From Maribacter zhoushanensis (GTDB lineage: Bacteria; Bacteroidota; Bacteroidia; Flavobacteriales; Flavobacteriaceae), in the NCBI RefSeq assembly GCF_029350975.1, contig NZ_JARKMR010000004.1, positions 62,001-126,000 of the forward strand: 64,000 nucleotides of DNA. Direction: 5' to 3'. How positions within the stretch are numbered: position 1 is the stretch's first letter; each line of letters begins with the position of its first letter. The notes under the pieces are model-generated. The model was not told where the DNA came from. It saw only the letters and a program-made list of their open reading frames with translations, and searched no databases. Positions 23,429 through 45,344 of the stretch are shown here, one piece after another. Made by a program: the position numbers and the translations under genes.

Positions 23429-25921
23429 ATGAAACAACTTTTCCCTTTACTCCTACTCCTAGTACTATCATTCAATTACACACATAGTCAAAGACCGGGA
23501 GGAGACCGGGAAAGAGGTCCAATTGTCATTACAGGTAAGGTCTTGGACAAAGATAATAACTTACCTTTAGAATATGCCACACTAGTACTACAAAGTGTTG
23601 CCAACCCAGATCAAATTACCGGTGGTATAACGGATATAGATGGAAATTTTAAGGTTGAGGCATCACCAGGTAAGTATAATATATCCATTGAATATATATC
23701 TTACAAAACGTATAAACTACCAAATCAAACTTTAAGAAAATCAACAGACTTAGGTACCATTAAACTTGCCTTAGATGTAGCCCAATTAGAAGCTGTAGAA
23801 GTAGTTGGTGAAAAGACAACTGTAGAAGTTCGTCTAGACAAAAAGATTTATAATATTGGTAAAGACTTAACCAATAGTGGTGCAACCATTACCGATGCCC
23901 TTAATAATGTACCATCTGTTGATGTAGATGTTGAAGGTGCTATAAGTTTAAGAGGTAATGAGAATGTTAGAATACTAATTAATGGCAAACCATCTGCTTT
24001 AGCAGGTTTTGGTTCTACTGACGCACTAACCCAACTTCCTGCAGATGCTATTGAAAAGGTTGAGGTTATTACAAGTCCATCTGCAAGATATGATGCAGAA
24101 GGTACAGCGGGTATTTTGAACATTGTTCTTAAAAAAGAAAAAACATTAGGTTTTAATGGCTCAGTAAATACAACCATAGGTTACCCTGTTAATAGTGGTA
24201 TATCTGTCAATGCAAATTTACGAACAGATAAATTCAATTTATTCAACACCACAGGTTATAGCTACAGAGACGCACCAGGTAATGCATTTTACGACAACAC
24301 TTATTCTTCTGGTACTTATGACAGAATTATAGAGGACAGAGAGTATAATAGATTAAGAAAGGGATTCAATACCAACTTAGGGTTAGAATATTTCTTGACC
24401 GAATCATCATCTATTACCGGTAGTGTTTTCTATAGAACTTCTAAAAGCGAAGATGAAACAGGCAATACAAACCAGAGGTTCATAAACAGCTCTTTAGACA
24501 GCGAAACGTTTAGAAGTGAAGATGAAAATGAAGATGATAACAACTATCAATTCTCTTTAAATTATGTAAATGATTTAGATGACAATGGACAAAAACTAAC
24601 AGTAGACCTTCAATATTCTAAAGGAGAAGAAGAAAAGTTTAATCTCATTCAAGAGAACAATACATTGCCTAATGATGATTTAATCGTTTTGGAAAATGTA
24701 TACGAGGAAGAAACCGACAACGAATATTTAATTCAAGCAGATTATGTACTACCAATGGGTGACGCTCAATTTGAAATTGGCTACAGAGGAACTTTTGAAG
24801 AAACAGGTACTGACTATCGCTTAGATTCCCTAAACCAAGCAACAGGTTTATTTGATATCAACGAAGACCTTACCAACCTATTTACTTATACTGAAAACGT
24901 AAATGCATTATATACACAGTATGGTAACAAATTTGGTAAATTTTCTTTCCTATTAGGATTACGATTAGAAAACACGCAATTGAAAGGTGAACTGTCTTCG
25001 TTATATGACACTAGTGAATTAGAAGATCAATTAGGCGTTGATGTAGAAGCTAATTTCGATAATAATTATTTAGGCTTGTTCCCAACAGTGAATTTCATTT
25101 ATGAGTTAGCTGAAAATGAAAATATTTCTTTAGGTTATAACAGAAGAATAAATAGACCTAGAGGTAGATTTGTAAATCCTTTTCCATCTAGATCTAGTAG
25201 AACAAATATTTTTCAAGGTAACCCAAATTTAAATCCGGCATTTTCAAATGCTTTTGATTTAGGTTATTTGAAAAGATGGGACAAAATAACCTTAACTTCT
25301 TCCATTTACTATCAAAGAGAAACCGACTCTTTTGAGCGTGTTCAAGAAGAAACAGGACAAACTACCACTGATGGTATTGAAATTATTAGATCTATTCCTA
25401 TCAACCTATCTACAAACGATAGAATAGGTGTTGAAGCTGGTGTTTTATATAGTGCCGCAAAATGGTTGCGATTAAATTCTAGTTTTAACTTCTTTCAATT
25501 TTCAACTGAAGGAGACTTTAATGGTGTAGATTATGGCACCACAAATACAAGTTGGTTTGCTAGATTTAGCTCTAAGGTTTCACTACCAGCCAAAGTAGAC
25601 TGGCAAACTAATGCATTCTATAGAGGACCATCTTCTACCGCACAAACTGAAAACGGTGGTATATTCTCATTGAACCTAGCCTTCAGTAAAGATATTTTAA
25701 ATGATAACGGTACGCTTTCACTAAATGTAAGTGATTTATTGAACTCTAGAAAAAGAACATCATATACAGAAACAGAGTTCTTTACATCAGACAGTGAGTT
25801 TCAATGGAGACAACGCCAAATAACTATGGGCTTTGTATATCGTTTCAATCAACCAAAGGAACGTAACAAAGGTAATAGAGGGGGAAACAACGATGATGAC
25901 GGAGATGAAATAGAAGGTTAA
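23429..25921 (+). CDS. TonB-dependent outer-membrane receptor (OMP_b-brl_3 type)
   Basis: An 830-residue receptor with signal peptide MKQLFPLLLLLVLSFNYTHSQ. A CarboxypepD_reg-like domain (about 34-110) has ITGKVLDKDNNLPLEYATL. The plug (about 125-235) has TITDALNNVPSVDVDVEGAI, RGNENVRILINGKPSALAG and AIEKVEVITSPSARYDAEG. The barrel belongs to the outer-membrane beta-barrel family 3, as in SLGYNRRINRPRGRFVNPFP and FQGNPNLNPAFSN. Such proteins import substrates or are fixed in the membrane using TonB; the ligand is unknown. The C-terminus is acidic (NNDDDGDEIEG), unlike the usual aromatic ending. It is directly joined to the secreted gene upstream and ends before a bidirectional terminator. Confidence 0.9.
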   Translation: MKQLFPLLLLLVLSFNYTHSQRPGGDRERGPIVITGKVLDKDNNLPLEYATLVLQSVANPDQITGGITDIDGNFKVEASPGKYNISIEYISYKTYKLPNQTLRKSTDLGTIKLALDVAQLEAVEVVGEKTTVEVRLDKKIYNIGKDLTNSGATITDALNNVPSVDVDVEGAISLRGNENVRILINGKPSALAGFGSTDALTQLPADAIEKVEVITSPSARYDAEGTAGILNIVLKKEKTLGFNGSVNTTIGYPVNSGISVNANLRTDKFNLFNTTGYSYRDAPGNAFYDNTYSSGTYDRIIEDREYNRLRKGFNTNLGLEYFLTESSSITGSVFYRTSKSEDETGNTNQRFINSSLDSETFRSEDENEDDNNYQFSLNYVNDLDDNGQKLTVDLQYSKGEEEKFNLIQENNTLPNDDLIVLENVYEEETDNEYLIQADYVLPMGDAQFEIGYRGTFEETGTDYRLDSLNQATGLFDINEDLTNLFTYTENVNALYTQYGNKFGKFSFLLGLRLENTQLKGELSSLYDTSELEDQLGVDVEANFDNNYLGLFPTVNFIYELAENENISLGYNRRINRPRGRFVNPFPSRSSRTNIFQGNPNLNPAFSNAFDLGYLKRWDKITLTSSIYYQRETDSFERVQEETGQTTTDGIEIIRSIPINLSTNDRIGVEAGVLYSAAKWLRLNSSFNFFQFSTEGDFNGVDYGTTNTSWFARFSSKVSLPAKVDWQTNAFYRGPSSTAQTENGGIFSLNLAFSKDILNDNGTLSLNVSDLLNSRKRTSYTETEFFTSDSEFQWRQRQITMGFVYRFNQPKERNKGNRGGNNDDDGDEIEG

Positions 25922-33245: not shown

Positions 33246-34874
33246 ATGGATTTAAAATTCAATCAAAACGAAGATAGGAATAAGTTGTTATTATCAGACC
33301 TTAGAAGAAAGCTAAACGAGGTTTATTTAGGCGGAGGAAAAGCCAAAATAGCCAAGCAGCATGATCAAGGAAAAATGACCGCCAGAGAACGTATTGATTA
33401 TCTTTTAGATCCAAAGTCTGAACAAATAGAAATAGGTGCTTTTGTTGGTGACGGCATGTATAAAGAACACGGCGGCTGCCCATCTGGTGGTGTCGTTATT
33501 AAAATGGGGTACGTAAAAGGAAAGCAGTGCATTGTCGTTGCCAATGATGCTACGGTTAAAGCCGGAGCTTGGTTCCCCATTACCGCAAAGAAAAATTTAA
33601 GAGCACAAGAAATAGCTATAGAAAACAAACTCCCCATTATTTATTTAGTGGATAGCGCGGGAGTGTACTTGCCTTTACAGGATGAGATATTCCCCGATAA
33701 GGAGCACTTTGGTCGCATTTTCAGAAATAACGCCATCATGAGCAGTATGGGCATTACCCAAATATCTGCCGTTATGGGTAGTTGTGTTGCCGGTGGTGCA
33801 TATTTACCAATTATGAGCGATGAAGCGCTAATTGTAGATAAAACCGCAAGTATATTTTTGGCAGGCAGCTATTTGGTAAAAGCTGCTATTGGCGAAAGCA
33901 TAGATAATGAAACTTTAGGCGGAGCTACTACACATTGTGAAATTAGTGGAGTAACAGATTATAAAGCGAAAGATGATGCCGCGGCTTTAGATACCATAAA
34001 GAATATTATGGATAAAATCGGTGATTTCCCTAAGGCGGGATACAACCGTAAGAAAAGTATGAAGCCAAAAGAAAACCCGGATGATATATACGGAATACTA
34101 CCAAGCTCTAGAGCTGAGCAATACGATATGATGGAAATCATTAAGCGTTTGGTAGACGATTCTGAATTTGAAGAATATAAAGCTGGCTACGGACAAACCA
34201 TTCTTACCGGATATGCACGTATAGATGGGTGGGCAGTAGGTATAGTTGCCAACCAAAGAAAAGTAGTTAAAACCAAAAAAGGTGAAATGCAATTTGGCGG
34301 AGTAATTTATTCCGACTCCGCAGATAAATCAACCCGATTTATAGCCAACTGCAATCAAAAGAAAATTCCCTTAGTCTTTCTACAAGATGTAACCGGTTTT
34401 ATGGTAGGTAGTAAAAGTGAACATGGTGGTATCATAAAAGATGGAGCTAAAATGGTAAATGCGGTAAGTAACTCCGTCGTTCCCAAGTTCACCATCGTCA
34501 TAGGAAACAGTTATGGAGCCGGAAACTACGCCATGTGCGGTAAAGCATATGACCCAAGATTAATTGTTGCTTGGCCAAGCGCAGAACTTGCTGTAATGAG
34601 TGGAAACTCTGCTGCCAAAGTATTATTACAAATTGAAAAAGCTTCTTTGAAAAAGAAAGGTGAAACTATTACAGAAACAAAAGAAACCGAGCTTTTTGAT
34701 AAAATCAAGAAACGTTACGACAATCAAGTTTCTCCGTACTACGCTGCTTCCCGCTTATGGACAGATGCTATTATAGACCCAAAAGACACCCGCAAATGGA
34801 TTTCTATGGGAATTGAAGCTGCTGATCATTCACCTATTGAAAAGCCTTTTAATATGGGGGTTTTGCAAGTTTAA
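33246..34874 (+). CDS. Acyl-CoA carboxylase, carboxyltransferase (beta) subunit
   Basis: About 542 residues from the ATG at 33246 (MDLKFNQNEDRNKLLLSDLR). The frame is open 114 bases further upstream, but that leader is not homologous-looking and would overlap the divergent gene's start region. Two crotonase-like carboxyltransferase domains are seen. The first has KMTARERIDYLLD and SCVAGGAYLPIMSDE; the second has KIPLVFLQDVTGFMVG and GNSYGAGNYAMCGKAYDP. It transfers carboxyl from biotin to propionyl-CoA, methylcrotonyl-CoA or a similar acyl-CoA. No biotin carboxylase subunit lies beside it, so the partner is encoded elsewhere. It ends before a strong hairpin. Confidence 0.9.
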   Translation: MDLKFNQNEDRNKLLLSDLRRKLNEVYLGGGKAKIAKQHDQGKMTARERIDYLLDPKSEQIEIGAFVGDGMYKEHGGCPSGGVVIKMGYVKGKQCIVVANDATVKAGAWFPITAKKNLRAQEIAIENKLPIIYLVDSAGVYLPLQDEIFPDKEHFGRIFRNNAIMSSMGITQISAVMGSCVAGGAYLPIMSDEALIVDKTASIFLAGSYLVKAAIGESIDNETLGGATTHCEISGVTDYKAKDDAAALDTIKNIMDKIGDFPKAGYNRKKSMKPKENPDDIYGILPSSRAEQYDMMEIIKRLVDDSEFEEYKAGYGQTILTGYARIDGWAVGIVANQRKVVKTKKGEMQFGGVIYSDSADKSTRFIANCNQKKIPLVFLQDVTGFMVGSKSEHGGIIKDGAKMVNAVSNSVVPKFTIVIGNSYGAGNYAMCGKAYDPRLIVAWPSAELAVMSGNSAAKVLLQIEKASLKKKGETITETKETELFDKIKKRYDNQVSPYYAASRLWTDAIIDPKDTRKWISMGIEAADHSPIEKPFNMGVLQV

Positions 34875-34918
34875 TTTCTTAAATACTTTTAGTAGCAATA
34901 TCTTATACTATTTACATT

Positions 34919-34959
34919 CAAAAAACCCACAACACATTTAAAATGTATTGTGGGTTTTT
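34919..34959. terminator. Terminator after the acyl-CoA carboxylase gene
   Basis: AAAACCCACAA.ACATTT pairs with AAATGT.TTGTGGGTTTT with one internal mismatch, followed by T5. It is usable from both strands. Confidence 0.85.
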
Positions 34960-35009
34960 ATAATAATTACATATCTACTATGCTATTATATTTTGCAATT
35001 TTAACGGAC

Positions 35010-36752
35010 TTAATTAGATACCATACTAACAGCATTAGATACTGAAAACAATTGCTGATTTACATTACGAAGACCAAGTTTAAAAACCTTTGTTTCTTTT
35101 CGTTGCGATGCACTACCGTAATTATAATATACAGTGGCTTTTAAATATGTAGGCGTCAAACTTTTATTACCTAAATAGGTAGCATTAACCAACCAATTAC
35201 CACGCAGGGTATCATCTATTAAATATTCTTCACTAGAAAAACCTGAACGTTTTTCGCTTTGAATTCTCTCAGAATCTGCCACTAGAGAATGTTCACTTTT
35301 GTAATATCTTTTTTCTGGGTTTACAAATTGTAATTCAAATTCTGCCTCACTATCACTCCATTCAAAAACCAAACGAGTCCCCTTAAAATCATCATCAAGT
35401 TTAATTTCATTCACCTTATCCGTTGAAACTAAATCGGCACCCTTTAAAGAAATCAAATTATTTAAATTACGATCCATTATGGTTTTTACTTCCTCTTCCT
35501 TTTCCAATAATTCTTCTTCTAATAAATAATCATATCGTAGATACATAGCTGCCGCTTTTTGATTCATACCTAGATCTCTATAACTATTTGCAAGGTCTAA
35601 ATAAGACTGGGCATAATCTGCTCTAAGCGTATATACATCTTCATATAATTTATTCGCTTTCTCTAATTTCCCTTCTGCTTGATAAATATATGCCAGAGAC
35701 TTCAATGCCAAAGGATTTCCACTCAGAACCCTATCATTCTCTTGGATAATCTTTTCAGCAAATTCATTATTTTTCCATTTGTTAGAAAAGTAATCATAAG
35801 CATCTAAAACATAGTAATAAGAACTACTGTATTTTTTGATTTGATTTTCGTAGATAACCTTTGCTTCGTCTTCGGTTTTCGCATTTAAAAGTTCATTCAG
35901 GTACGAAGGCTTATCTTCTTTAAAATTAACTGTACTTAATGCTGAATTATCATATTTATTATTTCTAAGCTTAGCTTGATCATAAGGCTTTCCATCAATA
36001 TTACCAGCATATAATAATGTTTTCGTGTTAATTACTATGACACCGCCAGCACCTATTGACCCGTATCTAGTAGTCATTGCCAAATTATTTAAAACAGCCA
36101 ACCTAGCAATTGAAGCTGGTGCAATCCACGTAGGAGCACTAGTTAAAATCTGACCATCAACATCATAAACCGCAGGTGATGCCTGACTTATGGAATTAAA
36201 CCCTCTAATGTATACACCTCCACCTCTCATACAATCACCAAACACTCTTACTCCCGGAAATTCGTTTCTAACAACATCTAAAATACAGATACCTACATCA
36301 TTGATTTCTTCCTCTTGTAAAAACCTAATTTTTCCTGGTGCAGTCTCACTATCCAAAATTCCGAATGCCGTTTTAATTAAATTTGGTTTGTATTTATACT
36401 CTTCTTCCAATTCACTTTGAGATTTCCTATTACTACCTTTTACGGTTACCTCATCTAATTGTTCAACTTTTTGACTCATTCCTATATTCAAGGTGCGAGT
36501 AACATCTTCTACCATAATTTGCACATCATTGAGGCCCGGATATTTGTATAATAACACATCTCTAGGTTCAGTCGTTATTTGGTAAAATCCGTTTGAGTCT
36601 GTTGTAGTTGCAATATCAGAATCTATAATAGATATCTGAACATTTGCCAAAGGAGCATCCATTTGGGTAACTTTACCTTTTACAATTTTGCTCTGGGCAT
36701 GAACATTGCAAGCAAAAGATGCTAATACTAAGAGGAATAAAACATTTTTCAT
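35010..36752 (-). CDS. Barrel-less TonB-plug protein with TPR and DUF2135-like C-terminal domain (shorter paralogue)
   Basis: A 580-residue exported protein. Order: signal peptide (ends NVHAQ); CarboxypepD_reg-like domain about 22-105 (KIVKGKVTQMDAPLANVQIS); plug domain about 130-245 (VVRNEFPGVRVFGDCMRGGG, VYIRGFNSISQASPAVYDVD, RYGSIGAGGVIVINTK). TPR-like helices follow at about 320-430 (GKLEKANKLYEDVYTLRADY). The C-terminal domain at about 465-580 has TRLVFEWSDSEAEFELQFVN, which resembles DUF2135. A normal TonB receptor would have some 600 residues of barrel after the plug; here there is none. The frame is intact. It is a tandem paralogue of the 891-residue gene upstream. Likely periplasmic; function unknown. 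Confidence 0.8.
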   Translation of the reverse strand: MKNVLFLLVLASFACNVHAQSKIVKGKVTQMDAPLANVQISIIDSDIATTTDSNGFYQITTEPRDVLLYKYPGLNDVQIMVEDVTRTLNIGMSQKVEQLDEVTVKGSNRKSQSELEEEYKYKPNLIKTAFGILDSETAPGKIRFLQEEEINDVGICILDVVRNEFPGVRVFGDCMRGGGVYIRGFNSISQASPAVYDVDGQILTSAPTWIAPASIARLAVLNNLAMTTRYGSIGAGGVIVINTKTLLYAGNIDGKPYDQAKLRNNKYDNSALSTVNFKEDKPSYLNELLNAKTEDEAKVIYENQIKKYSSSYYYVLDAYDYFSNKWKNNEFAEKIIQENDRVLSGNPLALKSLAYIYQAEGKLEKANKLYEDVYTLRADYAQSYLDLANSYRDLGMNQKAAAMYLRYDYLLEEELLEKEEEVKTIMDRNLNNLISLKGADLVSTDKVNEIKLDDDFKGTRLVFEWSDSEAEFELQFVNPEKRYYKSEHSLVADSERIQSEKRSGFSSEEYLIDDTLRGNWLVNATYLGNKSLTPTYLKATVYYNYGSASQRKETKVFKLGLRNVNQQLFSVSNAVSMVSN

Positions 36753-36913
36753 AGAATAGAGTTTTAAATATTATACTAAAATTAACATCAAAAATTAAAC
36801 CAGAGTTAATTATGTAGGAATTGATATACAAAATATGTATGAATTTAACAATTTTACGAAAACATTGAAAAATTAAAACAGACTTCAACCATTTAAATAT
36901 CAAGCTATTAATT

Positions 36914-39589
36914 TTAATTCAGCTTATCGATACCTAAAGTTGGTAGGTAAAATAAATTTTGATTCACATTTTTTAAAGATAGCCTATAAATTCTAATGGT
37001 GCTTTCTTCACTATCTGTACCATAACCAGAAAAAGAAGTCACTTTTAGATAGGTAGGCAAACCACTTTTATTCCCTTTATAATTTATATTTACAACCCAC
37101 TCCCCTATAATATCACTTTCAAGGAAGAACTCTTTGCTCGATGAATATTCTTGCTTACCAAAATATTCATTTTGATTGTTTAACGATGTACGAGAAACAA
37201 AATAACGATTTTCTGGATTTACGAACTGAAGTTCAAACTCGGCTTCATCATCGTTCCATTCAAAAAGAAGACGGGTATCTGTACCCTTGCGCATAGCCAC
37301 AATTTCTTTTAAATCCTCTGAACTAATAGCAAAGTCGGTTTTATGCTGTAAAAAGTGATTGAACTCAGTCGTAATGATAGGATGTAATCCTATAGTATCT
37401 GCCACAAGAAAAGAATCGTTCAATAATTTGGTGTACCTACTATAAAGATTAGCCGCCTTTTGCACCTCATTAACCTCAACATAGCTATTTGCCATGTCTC
37501 TATACGATTGCGCATAATTGGGTCTTTTTACAAAAACGTTGGTATATAATTTCTTGGCTTTTTCAAATTCACCTTCTCGCTGATGAGCATATGCCAAAGC
37601 TTTCATTTCATTGATATTATTTTCAAAGAGCGACTGATGATTAGCGATGATATCATTATTGAATTTTTCTTGCTCCCAATTAGCAGTAAAATAAATATAG
37701 GCATCAAGAAAGAACGAAGCAGAACTACTGTAAAGTTTCTCATTTTCGTGATACACTTTCTTAGCCGCTTCAAAACTACTGCCAGCTAAAAGAGCTTGAA
37801 GGTAGCCTGGCAAATTTTTATTAGCCTGTTGTTTATCTATTGCATCGTGCTTATAAATATTACGCTGAATTAATGCCTGATCAATATTTTTACCGTCTTT
37901 ACCAGCAAAATTAGAAAAATGAGTACTTATAGCAATAACACCACCTGCTGCAACTTGACCATACCTACCAACGCCAGCAAGACCAGGTATTACCGCAATA
38001 CGCTCAATAACATTCAAATCTAAGAAATAAGGAACTTCTTCATAGATTATACCGTCAACCTCAAATATAGCAGGTCTCAAATTATTTATTGATCCGCTTC
38101 CCCCTCTTATAAAAACAGCAACTTTGGTAAAAGAACATCCAAAACAGGGATTTTCAACTTTTACGTTCCCTACCCGGACACCCGCTATTTTACCGTCGAT
38201 AGCTGCAAGTATATTTGGGGCAGTTAAATTTAAACTCTTACCCTCTAAAATAGTTATTGAATGCCCAATAGTTTTTTTATCAAGGGTTCCATAAGCAGTT
38301 TTGGCAAATTCATCATTCGTTAAATATTCAGAAAACATTTCTGCCTCGGTTTTCTTTAAGCGTGCTCTTTCTGTAACCGTTACACCTGTTAACTCTTCTA
38401 CTTTAACATTCATACTTACATTAATGTTATGTACGGTTTCTGTAACTTTACGCTCTACCTTTTCAAAACCTAAATAATTATAACTAATAACATCACCTAA
38501 CCTAGCCATAATAGAGTATCTACCATAGGCATCTGTTTGTGTCTGTTTTAATGATTCTGTTATTTGAACTGTAGCATTTTCCACGGGCTTACCATTATTA
38601 AAAACAAAACCAGTAATAGATCGGTGGGTTTTAATAGGATTAGTATTAATTATTGGAGTTTGAAATGAATTTTTAAGCAACTTGTTTCTAGAATAATCTG
38701 ATATTTGAGCAATATCACCGTCATTCAAAGCAGTGGTATTAACATAAAAGGTCATTGCATCTCCCCTAAAGGTTTTCCATTGCCCTTGACTCACATATCT
38801 TCTGTACGAAGTACTTGGTCTATAATCTGCAGCCAAAACTAAACCAACGCGCTTACCATACACTTCCAATAATTCTAGACCAATACTAAAATCTTCATCT
38901 ACAATTAGATTGTAAGGCTTTAAATCTACCGTTATCTTTCCTGGAGATTTGCCTATCATTTTGGTAACGTTCTTTTTTAATAATTTATCTTCTGGATAGA
39001 TAGTTCCGCCCTTGTAAATATTGATACGTACCAAAACGCTATCTGAATAATTCTCGTTCACATAAAAGTGAAAATCTTTTAAGTAGTGCTTTTTCTTGTC
39101 TACACTTATTCTTGTCAATAATTCAGCACCCAATGAACCATCACCCTTCCAATACCCAAACTTATTTTTACTAGGATAGGAAAAACCGACAACGTCATCT
39201 TTTTTACCTTTTAGGTATTTAGCAGTTACTATCGCCTCGTTGAGTTGCATTGCCTCAGGCTGCATGACCACTTTTTGAAAAAGTGCATTGCTAAAGTTTA
39301 CCTCGGATATTTTGAACTTAACGGTTTTATAACCTACAGATGAAAATTGAAGAATATCATCTTTGGAAAAATTACCTTTATCAATCTCTAAATAAAACTT
39401 CCCGTCAAAATCACTTACGGTACCTACACCCTTATTTACAATTCCAATATTTACAAAAGGAAGCGTCTCTTTAGTGTCAGCATCCAGCACCGTTCCCTTA
39501 TATTGATGTTGTGCAAAAAGCCCTATACTTGATATACATAAAACCAAAAAAAGGAAATACTTTTTATGAAGTTTATTAATCAATATCAT
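36914..39589 (-). CDS. Barrel-less TonB-plug protein with two regulatory domains, TPR and DUF2135-like domain (longer paralogue)
   Basis: An 891-residue exported protein. Signal peptide (ends GLFAQ); CarboxypepD_reg domain one, about 27-110 (YKGTVLDADTKETLPFVNIG). A beta-sandwich follows at about 125-300 (FHFYVNENYSDSVLVRINIY, SIGLELLEVYGKRVGLVLA). A second CarboxypepD_reg lies at about 320-400 (SITGFVFNNGKPVENATVQI), and a plug at about 430-555 (AIDGKIAGVRVGNV, VAVFIRGGSGSINNLRPAIF, RYGQVAAGGVIAIST). TPR helices span about 610-720, and a C-terminal domain (TRLLFEWNDDEAEFELQFVN) is almost the same as in the next gene. There is no barrel. The shared plug-TPR-C-terminal order shows that the pair arose by duplication, the longer copy having extra N-terminal domains. 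Confidence 0.8.
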   Translation of the reverse strand: MILINKLHKKYFLFLVLCISSIGLFAQHQYKGTVLDADTKETLPFVNIGIVNKGVGTVSDFDGKFYLEIDKGNFSKDDILQFSSVGYKTVKFKISEVNFSNALFQKVVMQPEAMQLNEAIVTAKYLKGKKDDVVGFSYPSKNKFGYWKGDGSLGAELLTRISVDKKKHYLKDFHFYVNENYSDSVLVRINIYKGGTIYPEDKLLKKNVTKMIGKSPGKITVDLKPYNLIVDEDFSIGLELLEVYGKRVGLVLAADYRPSTSYRRYVSQGQWKTFRGDAMTFYVNTTALNDGDIAQISDYSRNKLLKNSFQTPIINTNPIKTHRSITGFVFNNGKPVENATVQITESLKQTQTDAYGRYSIMARLGDVISYNYLGFEKVERKVTETVHNINVSMNVKVEELTGVTVTERARLKKTEAEMFSEYLTNDEFAKTAYGTLDKKTIGHSITILEGKSLNLTAPNILAAIDGKIAGVRVGNVKVENPCFGCSFTKVAVFIRGGSGSINNLRPAIFEVDGIIYEEVPYFLDLNVIERIAVIPGLAGVGRYGQVAAGGVIAISTHFSNFAGKDGKNIDQALIQRNIYKHDAIDKQQANKNLPGYLQALLAGSSFEAAKKVYHENEKLYSSSASFFLDAYIYFTANWEQEKFNNDIIANHQSLFENNINEMKALAYAHQREGEFEKAKKLYTNVFVKRPNYAQSYRDMANSYVEVNEVQKAANLYSRYTKLLNDSFLVADTIGLHPIITTEFNHFLQHKTDFAISSEDLKEIVAMRKGTDTRLLFEWNDDEAEFELQFVNPENRYFVSRTSLNNQNEYFGKQEYSSSKEFFLESDIIGEWVVNINYKGNKSGLPTYLKVTSFSGYGTDSEESTIRIYRLSLKNVNQNLFYLPTLGIDKLN

Positions 39590-39717
39590 TTGGCGGTTTA
39601 TTTAATAACTGTTAATATATTCTTAAATATATGAATAACAGCACATTAAACCTAGTGCCTAAAAAAATAAATAAGATTTTTATTACATCTTTAATTAATA
39701 ATCTTACAAATAGAAAA

Positions 39718-41064
39718 TTAATAACCCTGATGTCCTTTCACTCTAGGAATCAATAAAAGCTCCGTTTGCCTTCCTCCCACATACCTAAAGCCATCTTCAC
39801 CGTAAAAACCTGCTTCTTCAAGCATAATACGAATATCTCTATTCCATTCCGGTATGTTGATGGTAGTATTTAATTCAATAGCATAAACAGTATTAGGATT
39901 TAATCCATAGTTTTCACCGTCGTCACGCATAACTCCGCCTTGAGAATCCCACATACCAATTGTAGTACCAGCCGAGTGACCATATAAACCTAATGGGTGT
40001 GTATAAATTGAAGGTCTTAAGCCGGCTGCTTTAGCTTCCTTTAATGATTTTGCTAGAATATCATTACCAGACCTGTCTTTAACCATATTACTGGTCAGAA
40101 AATCTTGTAGTTTATTCCCCTCTTTTAATCCATGAATTAAAAAATCTGGAGCAGCAGTTTCTTCTGGCTTTAAAACATATGCCAATTCTTGACAATCGGT
40201 ATTTAGGCGTAAGTATGTAATTCCGAAATCGCAATGCACTAAATCTCCTGGTAGAATCACCATATCGTCTGGCTTATTTGAAAAAGAATAAAACTCACTT
40301 TTTTCACCCTTCTCACTTCTTTGAACATCTATAGTTGGGTGAAACCAAGTTTCCAATCCTAAATCGGTTACTTTTTGTCTCATCCACCATACCACATCAG
40401 AGGTTCTAGTTACTCCAGGAGTAATTACTTTTTCAGAAAAAGCCTCTGCAATAATATCATGAGTAATATCTACTAATTGATTGTAGATAACCATTTCACG
40501 TTCCGATCTTGTTTCAATCCAACGAACAGCAAGTTGTTCCGCAGAAGTAACTTTTGAAGTGTATTTCTTAGGTAAATTAGCCATAAACTCTTCATAGTCT
40601 GTTTTAACTAATCCATCGGCAATATTGTGATCTGTAGAATAATTTAGTCCAATTTTCTTAGGATCTCTTTCAGATATCAATTGCATCAACCTAGTCCATT
40701 GGTTAGGCACTTTTTCCTTGTCCCAAGCAGATACAATATTTTTACCTACATTATAACGGGCAACAGCCAACTTTTCAATCGTATTCTTCGCCTTATCTCT
40801 ATAGAACAAAAGAATAGTTCTTCTGCGAGCGTTCAACCAAGTAGCCGGAAGCATTGTTTTAATAACCGGATCCTCATTGTATTCCCTTGATATCACCACC
40901 CACATATCAAGGTCAGCGGCATCCATAAGTTCAGGTAGCAGATTATTGAAACGATCGTCTAAAATTTCATCAATTACCTGTGCTCTTTCTTTTTCATTTA
41001 AGATTTGTTGGGCGCTAATTTTACCTATAAAAATTAAGCATACAAAAAGGAATAGTTTTTTCAT
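39718..41064 (-). CDS. Secreted M24 family metallopeptidase (Xaa-Pro aminopeptidase-like)
   Basis: About 448 residues from the ATG at 41064, which gives a clear signal peptide (MKKLFLFVCLIFIGKISAQQ). The open frame extends 66 bases further upstream with a poorer leader. The pita-bread domain has the metal ligands in order: Asp in LVHCDFGITYLRLNTDCQ (two Asp), His in PLGLYGHSAGT, Glu in VYAIELNTT, and a further Glu in IMLEEAGFYGEDG. Activity is expected: removal of N-terminal residues before proline, or a related dipeptidase activity, in the periplasm. It lies between the vWA-plug gene and the paralogue pair on the same strand, so it may belong to that locus. That is inference. Confidence 0.87.
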   Translation of the reverse strand: MKKLFLFVCLIFIGKISAQQILNEKERAQVIDEILDDRFNNLLPELMDAADLDMWVVISREYNEDPVIKTMLPATWLNARRRTILLFYRDKAKNTIEKLAVARYNVGKNIVSAWDKEKVPNQWTRLMQLISERDPKKIGLNYSTDHNIADGLVKTDYEEFMANLPKKYTSKVTSAEQLAVRWIETRSEREMVIYNQLVDITHDIIAEAFSEKVITPGVTRTSDVVWWMRQKVTDLGLETWFHPTIDVQRSEKGEKSEFYSFSNKPDDMVILPGDLVHCDFGITYLRLNTDCQELAYVLKPEETAAPDFLIHGLKEGNKLQDFLTSNMVKDRSGNDILAKSLKEAKAAGLRPSIYTHPLGLYGHSAGTTIGMWDSQGGVMRDDGENYGLNPNTVYAIELNTTINIPEWNRDIRIMLEEAGFYGEDGFRYVGGRQTELLLIPRVKGHQGY

Positions 41065-41161
41065 GAGTGTTGTTTGGTTTAAGCACTGAAAATACAAAAT
41101 AACAAACATTAGAAATAAACTATTCCCCAAAAATCAAATGATTTTTACAATCTATTTAATA

Positions 41162-43258
41162 TCAATAGTTGTCAGTTACCAATTTCTCATTAACGCTTTT
41201 AACCAACCTGATAAATTCTGCTCTATATCCATTTTTATCGTCACCTCTACCGTTCTCTGCCAATTCAATAATATTTTTATAAGATGTTTTATTTATAAAT
41301 GCAGAGTTTCGTAATTGCTGACCGAACAAAGCAACGGCTGTGGCAAATTGAAAATCTTTTGTCATTTCTTGAAAATTTGAATTTTGCACATGAACCAATT
41401 CTATACTCTTTTTACCATCAGGTTTTTTATATCTGAATTTAACAGTAAACAACTCATCAGAAAAAGCATTATTACTAGTAGTATTAGTATACTTTAATTC
41501 TGGTGTTTTTTTATCATATACTGATTCAACCCCTGTTTCCACTATTTCATACAAAGCGGTTACCTTATGTCCGCTGCCTAATTCCCCTGCATCTTTGGTA
41601 TCATCAATAAAATCTTCATCTGCCAATAATCTATTCTCGTAACCAATTAGTCGATAAGATTTTACTTTTGCTGGATTAAACTCTACCTGCAGCTTTACGT
41701 CTTTTGCAATGGTAAACAAAGTACCACCGAACTCCTTACCAAATAACTTCTGAGCTTCTTGCATAGTATCTATGTAGCCATGATTTCCGTTTCCTTTATC
41801 TGCCAAAGTTTCCAACTTAGAATCCAAATAATTACCCATTCCGAAACCTAGCACAGAAAGAAACACTCCAGATTCTCGTTTTTCAGTAATCAAATCTTCC
41901 ATGTCTTTATCGCTAGACAGCCCAACGTTAAAATCCCCATCTGTTGCCAATATCACTCTATTATTACCATTTTTTTTAAAATTCTTTTCTGCCAGTTTAT
42001 ACGCTAATTGAATTCCTTCTCCACCAGCTGTAGAACCGCCAGCCTCTAAGTTATTTAGTGCACTCATGATTTTCTCTTTATTATTACCAGATGTAGGTTC
42101 CAACACAACACCGGCTGCCCCGGCATAAACAACAATAGAAACCCTATCTTTTTCTCTTAATTGATTTACTAATAGTTTAAATGCGGATTTTAGTAGTGGT
42201 AATTTATTACCTGCCGACATTGAACCAGAAACATCTATAAGAAAAGTTAGATTAGAAGCTGGCAGCTCTTCATTTAAATACTCTTTTCCCTGCAAACCAA
42301 TACGTACCAACTTAGTATCAACATTCCAAGGAGTTTGTGCTACCTCTGTGTTAACAGAAAAAGGATGCTCTGCTGTTGGTTGCGGATAATCATAATCGAA
42401 GTAATTAATCATTTCTTCAATCTTAACGGCATCTATAGGAACCGCCTTTCCATTATTTATGAATCTTCTAATATTACTGTATGCCGCTTTGTCGACATCT
42501 ATGGAAAAAGTAGATAGCGGATTTACGTTAACATTCTGAAATTGATTTTCAGTAATTTGAGCATAATTCTCATCTTCTTCAATTACATAATTTCCTTTTA
42601 CGGTTTGTATTACAATACATCCATACCTGGCATCAGCTCCATACAAACTCTTTGCTTCAGAAGCTTTAAGTTTTTTTCTACTATCAATATTTTCACTTTT
42701 TAAGTTTTGAACAATTGAATTATATTGCTTTTTAATAGGAACACCATCAACAATATACAGAGGGGTTGTTACCTTTTTGTGCTTTTCCTTCTTTTCTTGG
42801 GGAATTGCTCCACTTATTGCGACACCACTTATCTTACCTTGCAATAGGCTATTCATATTATTTTGAGAGTTTCGTTTTCTAGTTCGATTACCTCTGACTC
42901 TTGTCACCGAACCTGTTAAGAAAGAACGTTTAGAAGTTGCGTAACCTACGACCACAACCTCTTCAAGAGCTTCATGATCTTCTTCAAGTGAAACATTAAC
43001 AACTACTGATTCCCTGATCTTTACAGTTAGATTCTTACAACCTATATATGAAAATGCTAATTCAGCACCTTCTGATACTATTATAGCATAATGTCCATCA
43101 AAATCTGTTTGTGTACCATTGGTCGTTCCTTTTTCCATAACATTTACACCAGGCATAGGGTACCCTGCATGATCAGAAACAATACCACTAATTTTAACTT
43201 GTTGAGAAGACAACAGCATACTATAGAACAGAAAAAATAGGAAAATTGCATTTTTCAT
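41162..43258 (-). CDS. TonB-plug/von Willebrand factor A fusion protein (YfbK-like)
   Basis: A 698-residue exported protein. Signal peptide (ends SSQ); CarboxypepD_reg at about 22-95 (VKISGIVSDHAGYPMPGVNV). A plug-like segment at about 100-225 has LLQGKISGVAISGA, PLYIVDGVPIKK and KSLYGADARYGCIVIQT. A vWA N-terminal region at about 240-330 has FSIDVDKAAYSNIRRFINNG. The vWA domain (about 335-505) has the metal site LIDVSGSMSAGNK (DxSxS), with further MIDAS residues in GGSTAGGEG and ILATDGDFNVG. A DUF3520-like C-terminus has HKVTALYEIVE. The vWA-DUF3520 half resembles E. coli YfbK. A plug ahead of vWA with no barrel is unusual. Role unknown; adhesion or complex assembly in the periplasm is plausible. 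Confidence 0.82.
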   Translation of the reverse strand: MKNAIFLFFLFYSMLLSSQQVKISGIVSDHAGYPMPGVNVMEKGTTNGTQTDFDGHYAIIVSEGAELAFSYIGCKNLTVKIRESVVVNVSLEEDHEALEEVVVVGYATSKRSFLTGSVTRVRGNRTRKRNSQNNMNSLLQGKISGVAISGAIPQEKKEKHKKVTTPLYIVDGVPIKKQYNSIVQNLKSENIDSRKKLKASEAKSLYGADARYGCIVIQTVKGNYVIEEDENYAQITENQFQNVNVNPLSTFSIDVDKAAYSNIRRFINNGKAVPIDAVKIEEMINYFDYDYPQPTAEHPFSVNTEVAQTPWNVDTKLVRIGLQGKEYLNEELPASNLTFLIDVSGSMSAGNKLPLLKSAFKLLVNQLREKDRVSIVVYAGAAGVVLEPTSGNNKEKIMSALNNLEAGGSTAGGEGIQLAYKLAEKNFKKNGNNRVILATDGDFNVGLSSDKDMEDLITEKRESGVFLSVLGFGMGNYLDSKLETLADKGNGNHGYIDTMQEAQKLFGKEFGGTLFTIAKDVKLQVEFNPAKVKSYRLIGYENRLLADEDFIDDTKDAGELGSGHKVTALYEIVETGVESVYDKKTPELKYTNTTSNNAFSDELFTVKFRYKKPDGKKSIELVHVQNSNFQEMTKDFQFATAVALFGQQLRNSAFINKTSYKNIIELAENGRGDDKNGYRAEFIRLVKSVNEKLVTDNY

Positions 43259-43357
43259 TATAATTGGTTTAAAGTTTGAACAATAAACCTATAAAGAAAG
43301 AAATGCTATAAAAATGAAAAATGAGTAAAGTATGGCTTTGAGCTAGGGAAGTTATGA

Positions 43358-44434
43358 CTACAGTAAGGACATGGTTTTTTGTCGCTGCACTTTACCACTT
43401 TCAGTCCGTTTAAATTCTTTAGAAACCATAATGGCTTTAGGTTTCTCAAATTTTTTGAATTCTAATATTTTATCCAAGGTTTTATGAATATCACTTTTAG
43501 AGGTATTCTCAACTACCAAAACAACTTTCTGTCCTAACTCTTCATCTTCAACACCGATTACAAAGAAGGGAATATTTAAATACTTAGAAAGCACTTTCTC
43601 TATATGCTCAGGATGCAACTTAACTCCACCAGAATTTATAACATTATCAATTCTACCAAGCCATTTAAATTCTTTTTCCGAAACCAATTCAACAACATCA
43701 TTGGTAACTACAGTTTCATCTGAAATCTTAGGAGCATTGATTACTAAACAGTTTCTTTCATCTACTGAAATTTTTACATCTGGTAAAATTGAAAAAGATG
43801 ATTCAAACCCTGTTCCTGTATTTAACGGATTTATAGCAATGTGGGTAATAGTCTCCGTCATACCATATGTTTCATAACTAGCGTTAGACACATTTTTCAA
43901 ATCTTCTCTTAATGATGCAGAAATAGGAGCTCCGCCAATAATGAGCTTTTTAACTTGATGCAAATTTGGTAAAGAGTTCTTTACCTGCATAGGAACCATA
44001 GCTCCAAAATCAAAAGACCTGTTTGTATCTTCTAACGGATTTGATGTTGGTGGCACAAAATAAATATTTAAACCTAATACCATAGCCCTAACCAACATCA
44101 TTTTACCTGCAATATACGTTGCAGGCAAGCATAACAAGGCTGAAGATTCAGGAGCTAAATCAAAATAGCTACCTGTCGCTAAAGCGCTATTTACCATATG
44201 CTCTTTCTTTAAGACAATGGTTTTAGGAGTTCCTGTAGAACCAGAAGTCTTTACTGAAATAGTTGAAGATCCATCTATCCAATCTAAAAGAAATTCACCT
44301 ATATGCTTTTCAAACTCCTCACCTTCTTTAATAAGGCTATAGCTAATTTCAAAAAGATTTTCACCAGACGTTAACCGACCGTTTACTCGAAAAGCATGAT
44401 GCGGGTTATAACTAGCCATCAGTTTTACTTTCAA
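43358..44434 (-). CDS. menE: o-Succinylbenzoate-CoA ligase
   Basis: A 358-residue short ANL-family ligase that activates o-succinylbenzoate with ATP and CoA in menaquinone synthesis. Motifs: P-loop KTSGSTGTPKTIVLKK, the core YETYGMTETITHIAINP, the hinge WLGRIDNVINSGGVKLHPE and the C-terminal lysine region RTESGKVQR. It is shorter than full acyl-CoA synthetases, as is normal for Bacteroidota MenE. The start is ambiguous: ATG at 44434, or ATG at 44419 (MASYNPHHAF), which overlaps the CPBP stop by 8 bases. The men context makes the assignment firm. Confidence 0.92.
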   Translation of the reverse strand: MKVKLMASYNPHHAFRVNGRLTSGENLFEISYSLIKEGEEFEKHIGEFLLDWIDGSSTISVKTSGSTGTPKTIVLKKEHMVNSALATGSYFDLAPESSALLCLPATYIAGKMMLVRAMVLGLNIYFVPPTSNPLEDTNRSFDFGAMVPMQVKNSLPNLHQVKKLIIGGAPISASLREDLKNVSNASYETYGMTETITHIAINPLNTGTGFESSFSILPDVKISVDERNCLVINAPKISDETVVTNDVVELVSEKEFKWLGRIDNVINSGGVKLHPEHIEKVLSKYLNIPFFVIGVEDEELGQKVVLVVENTSKSDIHKTLDKILEFKKFEKPKAIMVSKEFKRTESGKVQRQKTMSLL

Positions 44435-45344
44435 TCAAAAAAAACTCTTCTCTAGACAGTACTTTTCCAAAAAGTTTGTTCTTCCAATTTGACCAACCGT
44501 ACTTTTTAGAAAACAAGAATAATAAAATAGGAAAAATTATAAAAACCGGAACCAAAACGTCATAGCCCAAAACAGGATCAGAAACATCTCTATAAATTGA
44601 ATTTGTCTGAAAGGCTGTCCAATCTGCAGTTAGTAACAAAGCACTGATTAAATTATTAGCCGCGTGAAAACCTAATGCCAATTCCAAACCATCATCCATA
44701 AGGGTTATTATTCCTAAGAAAAAACCTGTACCTATATAATAGATCATTATACCGTATCCTAACTTTTCAACTTCTGGGTTACCTAAATGCATTAATCCAA
44801 ATAAAACAGAGGTTACAACTAAAGGCACCCATCGGTTCTTTACGGCAAGCCCTATACCTTGCATCATATGACCTCTAAACAGATACTCTTCAAAACTTGT
44901 TTGTAAAGGAATAAGCAAAACACCTATTAATGCTAAATACAAGAAGGGTTTCAATTTAAAATTAAATTCATAATCCTCTGGAGACAAATAAATACCTACC
45001 ATAGTCAATACTACCGTAAGTAAACCCCATACCGCAAAGGCAAAACCTACCCTTTTCCAATCTATTTTTTTTCTAGCTGTTGTCAAAGAAGTAATACTTT
45101 GCGCATGCACCAATTTAGACCAACCTAACACCAACAACAACCCTAAAGCCAATGGTGCCAATAAAATAATTAAGACCAAATTAGACCCTAATTTATCAAT
45201 CATTCCAGCCATACTATCCTCTACACTAACAGGCGAGAACACTATAGCTATATAATTCATAACCATTAAACCAATAAAGCATCCAGGAATTATCAAATAT
45301 TTCCATAAACCGATATCTCCTTTATACCCCTGTTCTATATACAT
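44412..45344 (-). CDS. CPBP-family intramembrane glutamic endopeptidase
   Basis: A 310-residue protein with about eight membrane segments and the full CPBP (Rce1-like) motif set: SFEEYLFRGHMM (EExxxR), LFGLMHLGNP (FxxxH) and LGFHAANNLI (HxxxN). It is an active intramembrane protease by pattern; its substrate is unknown. It overlaps menC by 10 bases and menE by up to 23, so it is translated with the men genes although it is not part of the known pathway. Confidence 0.88.
   Translation of the reverse strand: MYIEQGYKGDIGLWKYLIIPGCFIGLMVMNYIAIVFSPVSVEDSMAGMIDKLGSNLVLIILLAPLALGLLLVLGWSKLVHAQSITSLTTARKKIDWKRVGFAFAVWGLLTVVLTMVGIYLSPEDYEFNFKLKPFLYLALIGVLLIPLQTSFEEYLFRGHMMQGIGLAVKNRWVPLVVTSVLFGLMHLGNPEVEKLGYGIMIYYIGTGFFLGIITLMDDGLELALGFHAANNLISALLLTADWTAFQTNSIYRDVSDPVLGYDVLVPVFIIFPILLFLFSKKYGWSNWKNKLFGKVLSREEFFLIESKTDG

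Follow-up and report, generated by a model that had tools for sequence, protein, structure and literature searches.

The stretch of Maribacter zhoushanensis DNA analysed here (contig NZ_JARKMR010000004.1; 64,000 nucleotides, hereafter the window, with positions counted from its first letter) contains four consecutive open genes on the reverse strand, vWA, M24, G2 and G1, as given by the list of open reading frames (ORFs) of the window. G1, G2 and vWA encode proteins with a TonB-receptor-type plug, and M24 encodes a peptidase. Upstream lie genes that we take, from their sequences, to be menE-, CPBP- and menC-like, and downstream, on the other strand, lies a presumed carboxyltransferase-like gene. 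The initial annotation described three plug genes with intact frames and no barrel; this was confirmed, as all frames are open and a Pfam scan of G1, G2 and vWA found no barrel family even at E 1. The genes and their parts are the following.

35010..36752, reverse strand: G1, 580-amino-acid exported-type protein with CTD/NTE domain, Ton-box-like motif, plug, TPR and DUF2135-like sandwich
36465..36689, reverse strand: CTD/NTE domain of G1, residues 22-96
36441..36458, reverse strand: Ton-box-like motif LDEVTV of G1, residues 99-104; predicted local distance difference test (pLDDT) below 50 at residues 97-107
36015..36380, reverse strand: plug domain of G1, residues 125-246
35403..35933, reverse strand: TPR helices of G1, residues 274-450, from the structure model; Pfam TPR below cut-offs
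35028..35390, reverse strand: C-terminal beta-sandwich of G1, DUF2135-like, residues 455-575; most strongly conserved part of G1
36914..39589, reverse strand: G2, 891 amino acids; G2N-type part (CTD plus a segment of about 200 amino acids), second CTD, plug, TPR and G1-like C-terminus
37937..38278, reverse strand: plug of G2, residues 438-551; PF07715 at 21.5 bits, below the cut-off of 23.9
39718..41064, reverse strand: M24 metallopeptidase, exported-type, 448 amino acids from the ATG; the listed ORF starts upstream at 41130
41162..43258, reverse strand: vWA, 698 amino acids; CTD/NTE, eroded plug, vWF_A, VWA and YfbK_C
42770..42937, reverse strand: first half of the plug of the vWA protein, degenerate, residues 108-163; pLDDT 24-28 in blocks 101-160
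42584..42769, reverse strand: second half of the plug of the vWA protein, residues 164-225; pLDDT 66-85 in blocks 161-220
41759..42253, reverse strand: VWA domain of the vWA protein, residues 336-500; PF00092 at 76.7 bits

The domain order of the plug proteins is directly observed. Pfam recognised a CTD in G1, with TPR and DUF2135 both below cut-offs, and two CTD stretches in G2, with Plug and TPR below cut-offs. In vWA it recognised a CTD, vWF_A (141 bits), VWA (77 bits) and YfbK_C (240 bits), these last three all over their cut-offs, with Plug below its cut-off. Downstream of the plug, the structure model of G1 consists of helices and a sandwich and not of an outer-membrane beta-barrel, and the plug region itself shows a SusC-like plug fold. 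The structure prediction of plug segments that the initial annotation had proposed thus returned a plug fold for G1; in vWA the first half has low pLDDT, and none of the 50 alignment rows listed for the vWA structure model covers the plug, a listing that does not bear on its fold. G1 and G2 are of exported type and probably periplasmic. A receptor of CTD-plug-OMP_b-brl_3 composition, with a barrel, is encoded at 23429-25921 of the window and contrasts with the barrel-less plug proteins. No RNA family reached its gathering score within window positions 34000-44500, and promoter and terminator patterns around the locus were no more frequent than in shuffled sequence.

The plug of G1 is maintained. 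Across the 42 aligned rows of the G1 family, mean pairwise identity is 47% in the CTD, 46% in the plug, about 50% in the TPR and 67% in the C-terminal part, and the plug keeps a length of 107-118 residues with R183, D199, G200, Y230, G231 and G237 invariant. Among close orthologs, median ratios of nonsynonymous to synonymous substitution rates (dN/dS) are 0.108 for the CTD, 0.068 for the plug, 0.094 for the TPR and 0.026 for the C-terminal part, values that are rough because dS is about 1 and near saturation. Orthologs were taken from 40 fetched regions as sequences that passed a score threshold and had lengths in a set range, giving six sequences and 15 pairs for G1 (13 usable for the CTD). 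We conclude that the G1 plug is under purifying selection and is a maintained module. The earlier suggestion of a plug reused outside the barrel is therefore borne out, given the fold in the model and the selection that preserves it. The G2 plug clusters with G1-family plugs in a phylogenetic tree, and by this kinship it perhaps behaves like that of G1, the gene for which dN/dS was computed.

The plug of the vWA family presents the opposite picture. Among 38 rows, mean pairwise identity is about 50% in the CTD, 45% in the plug and 84% in the VWA domain, and plug length varies from 75 to 186. Median dN/dS (10 sequences, with 24 to 44 usable pairs out of 45) reaches 0.236 in the CTD, 0.365 in the first half of the plug and 0.195 in the second, with 0.048 in vWF_A, 0.037 in VWA and 0.088 in YfbK_C. 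When 15 YfbK-type homologues, one of them truncated before its N-terminus, were inspected by eye, they ranged from no CTD through a CTD alone and half plugs to full or partly doubled plugs; the homologues scanned had a CTD in eight of ten cases and a Pfam Plug in two of ten. The intact homologue P0175 is without most of the second plug half. At the level of the phylum, the vWA query matches 56 of 247 genomes at E 1e-80. The best match starts within the first 15 residues in seven genomes, all of the same family, and the remaining starts lie at 85 (one), at 182 (one) or at 204 and beyond. A lost plug cannot be concluded from a late start by itself, since two vWA-family proteins with starts at 158 and 153 (L110 and L113) have strong Pfam plugs. 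These plugs score 67 and 64 bits; by eye, another, partial plug comes after each, as if plugs had been re-added. We conclude that the vWA-family plug is eroding, which makes it a poor candidate for a common functional element of the three genes.

We examined the chromosomal setting of G1 relatives, which occur in marine Flavobacteriaceae such as this Maribacter. A search with the G1 alignment gave 178 stretches encoding relatives, of which the best 80 were kept; these form 75 loci, 51 of them at least 21 kb long, and this selection biases the 51-locus set toward close relatives of G1. Genera among the 75 loci include Maribacter, Croceitalea, Croceivirga, Robiginitalea, Muriicola, Poritiphilus, Pelagihabitans, Flagellimonas and Allomuricauda. 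All 51 loci contain menE, the carboxyltransferase gene and an array of one to eight cassette ORFs (fragments counted). The 156 cassette ORFs, every one on a single strand, comprise 105 of G1 type, 32 of G2N type, 16 of a type that we call T735 and three fused G2 ORFs (broken copies counted separately). The G2N part is an ORF of its own in 29 loci and is fused in three. M24 is present in 50 of the 51 loci and vWA in eight. In 49 of 51, the next labelled gene past M24 is a same-strand G1, G2 or T735 ORF, with a median gap of 80 bases. The association of an exported-type peptidase with genes of G1/G2 type, as first proposed, thus holds in 50 of the 51 loci of at least 21 kb.

Two further samples extend this picture. 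In 20 same-genus regions from 35 other genomes, picked for matches to G1, G2 or vWA, the order menE - (vWA) - M24 - cassettes - carboxyltransferase is found in every case, M24 included. The number of cassette ORFs ranges from zero (G022) to five (G007), and vWA is intact in nine regions and fragmented in one. In the wider family (20 regions from 17 other genomes, 19 around G1-like matches and one around vWA), the menE-carboxyltransferase frame is present in ten regions, eight of which have M24. G1 was found in four of 247 phylum genomes at E 1e-35, all of the same family. Split or broken copies of vWA or of G2/G2N, or assembly errors, were seen at L180, L183, L184 and L390 in genomes G013, G016, G018 and G158; such broken copies mean that the block may also lose genes.

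The M24 protein matches PF00557 at 32.9 bits (cut-off 23). Residues D301, D312, H385, E419 and E438/E439 (numbering of the 470-amino-acid ORF) are invariant in 61 M24 sequences and are presumably the metal ligands, as judged from M24 motifs. No relative with a solved structure was found by phmmer at E 0.001.

Co-occurrence was counted in one draw of 130 genomes of the family, uncorrected for relatedness. At the thresholds used, vWA is present in 32 genomes (E 1e-100), G1 in 19 (E 1e-60) and M24 in 46 (E 1e-60). G1 and M24 occur jointly in 17 genomes against 6.7 expected (hypergeometric probability 2e-7), vWA and M24 in 12 against 11.3 expected, and vWA and G1 in five against 4.7 expected. The last value, at chance level, and the presence of vWA in eight of 51 loci led us to reject the three genes as an obligate set. 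Together with the eroding vWA plug, the same counts leave the proposal of a single system of three plug genes unsupported. Neighbour conservation had been suggested as one way to check this, and it divides the group: vWA is rarely together with G1 or G2, whereas G1 and G2 do stay with M24. In 11 of the 12 genomes with both vWA and M24 the two adjoin, with vWA upstream, and in the twelfth, G136, they lie on separate contigs. Of the 29 genomes that have M24 but no strict G1 match, we viewed 20, four ORFs to each side. In these regions menE was labelled before M24 in 16, vWA-like ORFs were present in seven (six of them preselected; two broken up or fragmentary), ORFs resembling cassettes in nine and neither in seven. 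Since menE precedes M24 also without G1, the frame is an old feature of the family, and being neighbours is by itself weak evidence for a joint function. The link of vWA with M24 is accordingly a looser one: they are neighbours where both occur, but in a frame that seems to be inherited in the family.

The Ton-box-like motif of G1 was considered next to its plug. L99, V102 and V104 are invariant across 42 sequences, and the motif holds the position of the Ton box of Bt1763, DEVVVTG, which sits between NTE and plug and whose deletion or replacement causes levan growth defects as in SusD loss, according to PMC7782687. Both G1 and vWA contain such a motif; behind the second CTD of G2 the motif expression found no match. 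As a control, a fixed regular expression was applied behind 55 of the 62 CTD matches in the Maribacter genome itself, with ORF length as a proxy for receptor. It matched in 9 of 13 ORFs shorter than 600 amino acids (G1 included), in 28 of 39 of at least 700 amino acids, and in none of three of intermediate length, even by a looser pattern. Because the motif also follows the CTD in ORFs too short for receptors, it does not mark receptors, and we dropped it as proof of TonB coupling. It may represent a Ton box throughout these ORFs or just part of the CTD. The genome has four TonB_C matches. The plug proteins may bind TonB.

Several known systems resemble the plug proteins in part. SusC/RagA transporters (TIGR04056) share the order of NTE (CTD), Ton-box-like motif and plug, as well as the plug fold; unlike them, the plug proteins have no barrel, and their scores of 63, 120 and 176 bits fall short of the cut-off of 368. 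The vWA gene of the window has all three domains of YfbK-type vWA proteins (PF12450, VWA and PF12034) over cut-offs. Eight of the ten YfbK-type relatives scanned are without a Pfam Plug, and outside the family the vWA match usually starts behind the plug. BamP of the beta-barrel assembly machinery (BAM) complex of Flavobacterium johnsoniae (NF053692; PMC12611786) matches G1 and G2 in their CTD stretches only. Membership was rejected, with G1 at 36.2 and G2 at 40.1 bits against a cut-off of 230 and vWA not listed, and this analysis gave no evidence of a BAM role for the plug proteins. There is a further likeness to Bacteroidota proteins composed of VIT, vWA, CTD, plug, TPR and DUF2135, in which the order CTD, plug, TPR and DUF2135-type C-terminus is that of G1 and G2, and which also share a vWA domain with the T735 cassettes. 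G1 and G2 differ from this VIT type in having neither VIT nor vWA, in the added G2N part of G2 and in their tandem arrays. No description of these plug proteins appears in the titles and abstract openings of the literature matches listed. The arrangement is real and, within the literature searched, undescribed.

Other short plug ORFs were seen. In the same genome, a 132-amino-acid ORF (C10, L193:5187-5585) is almost plug only, with PF07715 at 24.0 bits and, by eye, a lipoprotein-like N-terminus. In relatives, a 165-amino-acid plug-only ORF lies between menE and M24 (L154:3145-3639) and a 212-amino-acid CTD-plug ORF between menE and vWA (L158:12935-13570). Barrel-less plugs are therefore not confined to the three window genes. 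A 904-amino-acid ORF between M24 and the cassette in G090 (L161:9606-12317) scores 32.9 bits for MG2; close to its C-terminus, inspection by eye alone suggests a plug-like stretch, which the Pfam scan did not report. A Plug search of the Maribacter genome listed 42 places and missed all three window plugs, so weak plugs are undercounted.

The likeness to VIT-type proteins suggests an origin for G1 and G2. In the same genome, the 1145-amino-acid protein C14 (L192:6478-9915) has VIT, CTD, Plug and DUF2135 over cut-offs, and its vWA domain is detected by a profile of the T735 N-terminus at 250-393 (E 3e-35, two-sequence test), a profile that gave no match to the YfbK-type vWA of the window in the same kind of test. 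G1 matches C14 over residues 153-560 at E 2.4e-26 and over residues 17-114 at 2.1e-4. The T735 cassettes have Plug over the cut-off in all eight scanned, and DUF2135 reaches 23.1 bits (cut-off 22) in the G1-family member P0044; neither VIT nor vWA was listed by the Pfam scan for G1 or G2. Since the N-terminal vWA of T735 is homologous to that of C14, the widespread VIT type probably has shortened relatives in G1 and G2. We infer a series, including its direction, from VIT-vWA-CTD-plug-TPR-DUF2135 through T735 (no VIT) and G1 (no vWA) to G2 (with G2N). Relatives of C14 occur in 22 of 247 phylum genomes at E 1e-60, and in ten of these the matches break off before the CTD-plug part and restart behind it, as if that part were missing. 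Several of the 120 best C14 relatives listed carry names of SusC-type receptors, so database names can mislead.

A plug tree was built from 18 barrel-less rows and 21 rows of the Maribacter genome, the latter hand-picked from 30 plug loci and called receptors by ORF length. The plugs of G1, G2, T735 and a 996-amino-acid form group together (support 96/85), the vWA-family plugs form another group (100/99), and the VIT plug stands apart. As to the number of origins of barrel-less plugs, the tree requires three changes, but a single clade is not rejected by the approximately unbiased test (p 0.057 for all, 0.062 for the vWA and G1 families). We are quite confident of the anatomy and evolution of G1 and G2 as described here.

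Taken as a whole, our favoured explanation is a tentative one whose chances fall somewhat short of even. G1 and G2 would be envelope adaptor proteins, probably periplasmic, that have lost VIT and vWA and either descend from the Bacteroidota VIT-vWA-NTE-plug-TPR-DUF2135 proteins or have a common ancestor with them. The retained SusC-type NTE and plug would form a folded, soluble unit that docks onto an envelope partner, a client would be held by the TPR helices together with the conserved C-terminal sandwich, and the adjoining M24 peptidase would probably act in the same process, for example on client peptides or N-termini. The vWA gene would be an optional neighbour, and its plug, now decaying, would have come along when a SusC N-terminus was captured. 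The docking role of the plug we propose a little more tentatively still.

Several observations weigh against this explanation. The dN/dS values, rough with dS near saturation, cover G1 and vWA. The link between M24 and the cassettes may be inherited synteny, both flanks being conserved, and close relatives of G1 are over-represented in the 51-locus set. Ten of the 20 wider-family regions lie outside the frame, with M24 recognised in none of these, and two of the 19 G1-bearing genomes (G076 and G186) are without M24. Conversely, M24 occurs without a recognised cassette in G022 and in 11 of the 20 further M24 regions. As to descent, the CTD is over its cut-off in only one of eight T735 cassettes and DUF2135 in none, and DUF2135 in G1 itself scores 14.4 bits against a cut-off of 22. 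Finally, the adaptor role depends on a partner, a client and a location that we infer.

An alternative is that the plug came along with a captured SusC N-terminus, which supplied the signal peptide and NTE, and is functionless in all these proteins. The vWA family fits this well, with homologues from no CTD to doubled plugs, a Pfam Plug in two of ten, lengths of 75-186, dN/dS of 0.365 in the first half and the near loss of the second half in P0175. For G1 it fits poorly, as the constraint on the plug equals or exceeds that on the CTD and TPR (0.068 versus 0.108 and 0.094), and the plug stays at 107-118 residues in 42 rows and keeps its six invariant positions, from R183 to G237; as an account of all the proteins it is unlikely, though it deserves weight. 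Less likely again is a TonB client without a barrel, in which NTE and motif would bind TonB, whose pull on the plug would be relayed to the TPR and sandwich, moving or releasing a client. L99, V102 and V104, invariant in a stretch of low pLDDT that corresponds in position to the Ton box of Bt1763 (PMC7782687), agree with this, as do the four TonB_C matches and the proposal, in PMC12204202, that vWA proteins resembling YfbK are motor-driven transducers. The spread of the motif over short and long ORFs alike (9 of 13 and 28 of 39), so that it is no mark of a receptor, and its failure in the second CTD of G2 argue the other way. We regard as improbable the bolder version in which the cassettes are channel-less TonB-driven machines, with NTE, motif and plug as a soluble force handle by which TonB would work the TPR/DUF2135 part on a client, M24 sharing in the handling of that client and the array diversifying clients or partners.

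Least probable of all is that the plug acts in trans, entering and gating a partner barrel that has no plug of its own. The SusC-like fold retained in G1 would allow it, and closed-state Bt1763 in vitro shows no plug density (PMC7782687). Receptor-like ORFs also lie nearby in two genomes. In G114, off the frame, a 958-amino-acid ORF (L155:11820-14693), with a CTD match and, by eye, a barrel, is some 1.9 kb away from the G1-like gene, with an opposite-strand gene between them; in G134 a 964-amino-acid ORF that matches CTD-plug precedes vWA by two ORFs. Both, however, seem to have plugs of their own, and in 30 framed blocks, whose smaller unlabelled ORFs were only partly scanned, the sole unlabelled ORF of receptor size from menE to the carboxyltransferase gene is the 904-amino-acid MG2 ORF of G090. 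The T735 and VIT versions, moreover, have extra domains flanking the CTD-plug on both sides.

Plugs are normally treated as stoppers of receptor barrels, and here one is kept by selection without a barrel. The maintained plug of G1 and the decaying plug of the neighbouring vWA protein offer a natural contrast for the roles of plugs outside barrels, one that also bears on whether TonB has clients other than transporters. If only the adaptor explanation is true, it would be a modest, well-delimited addition to the envelope biology of Bacteroidota.

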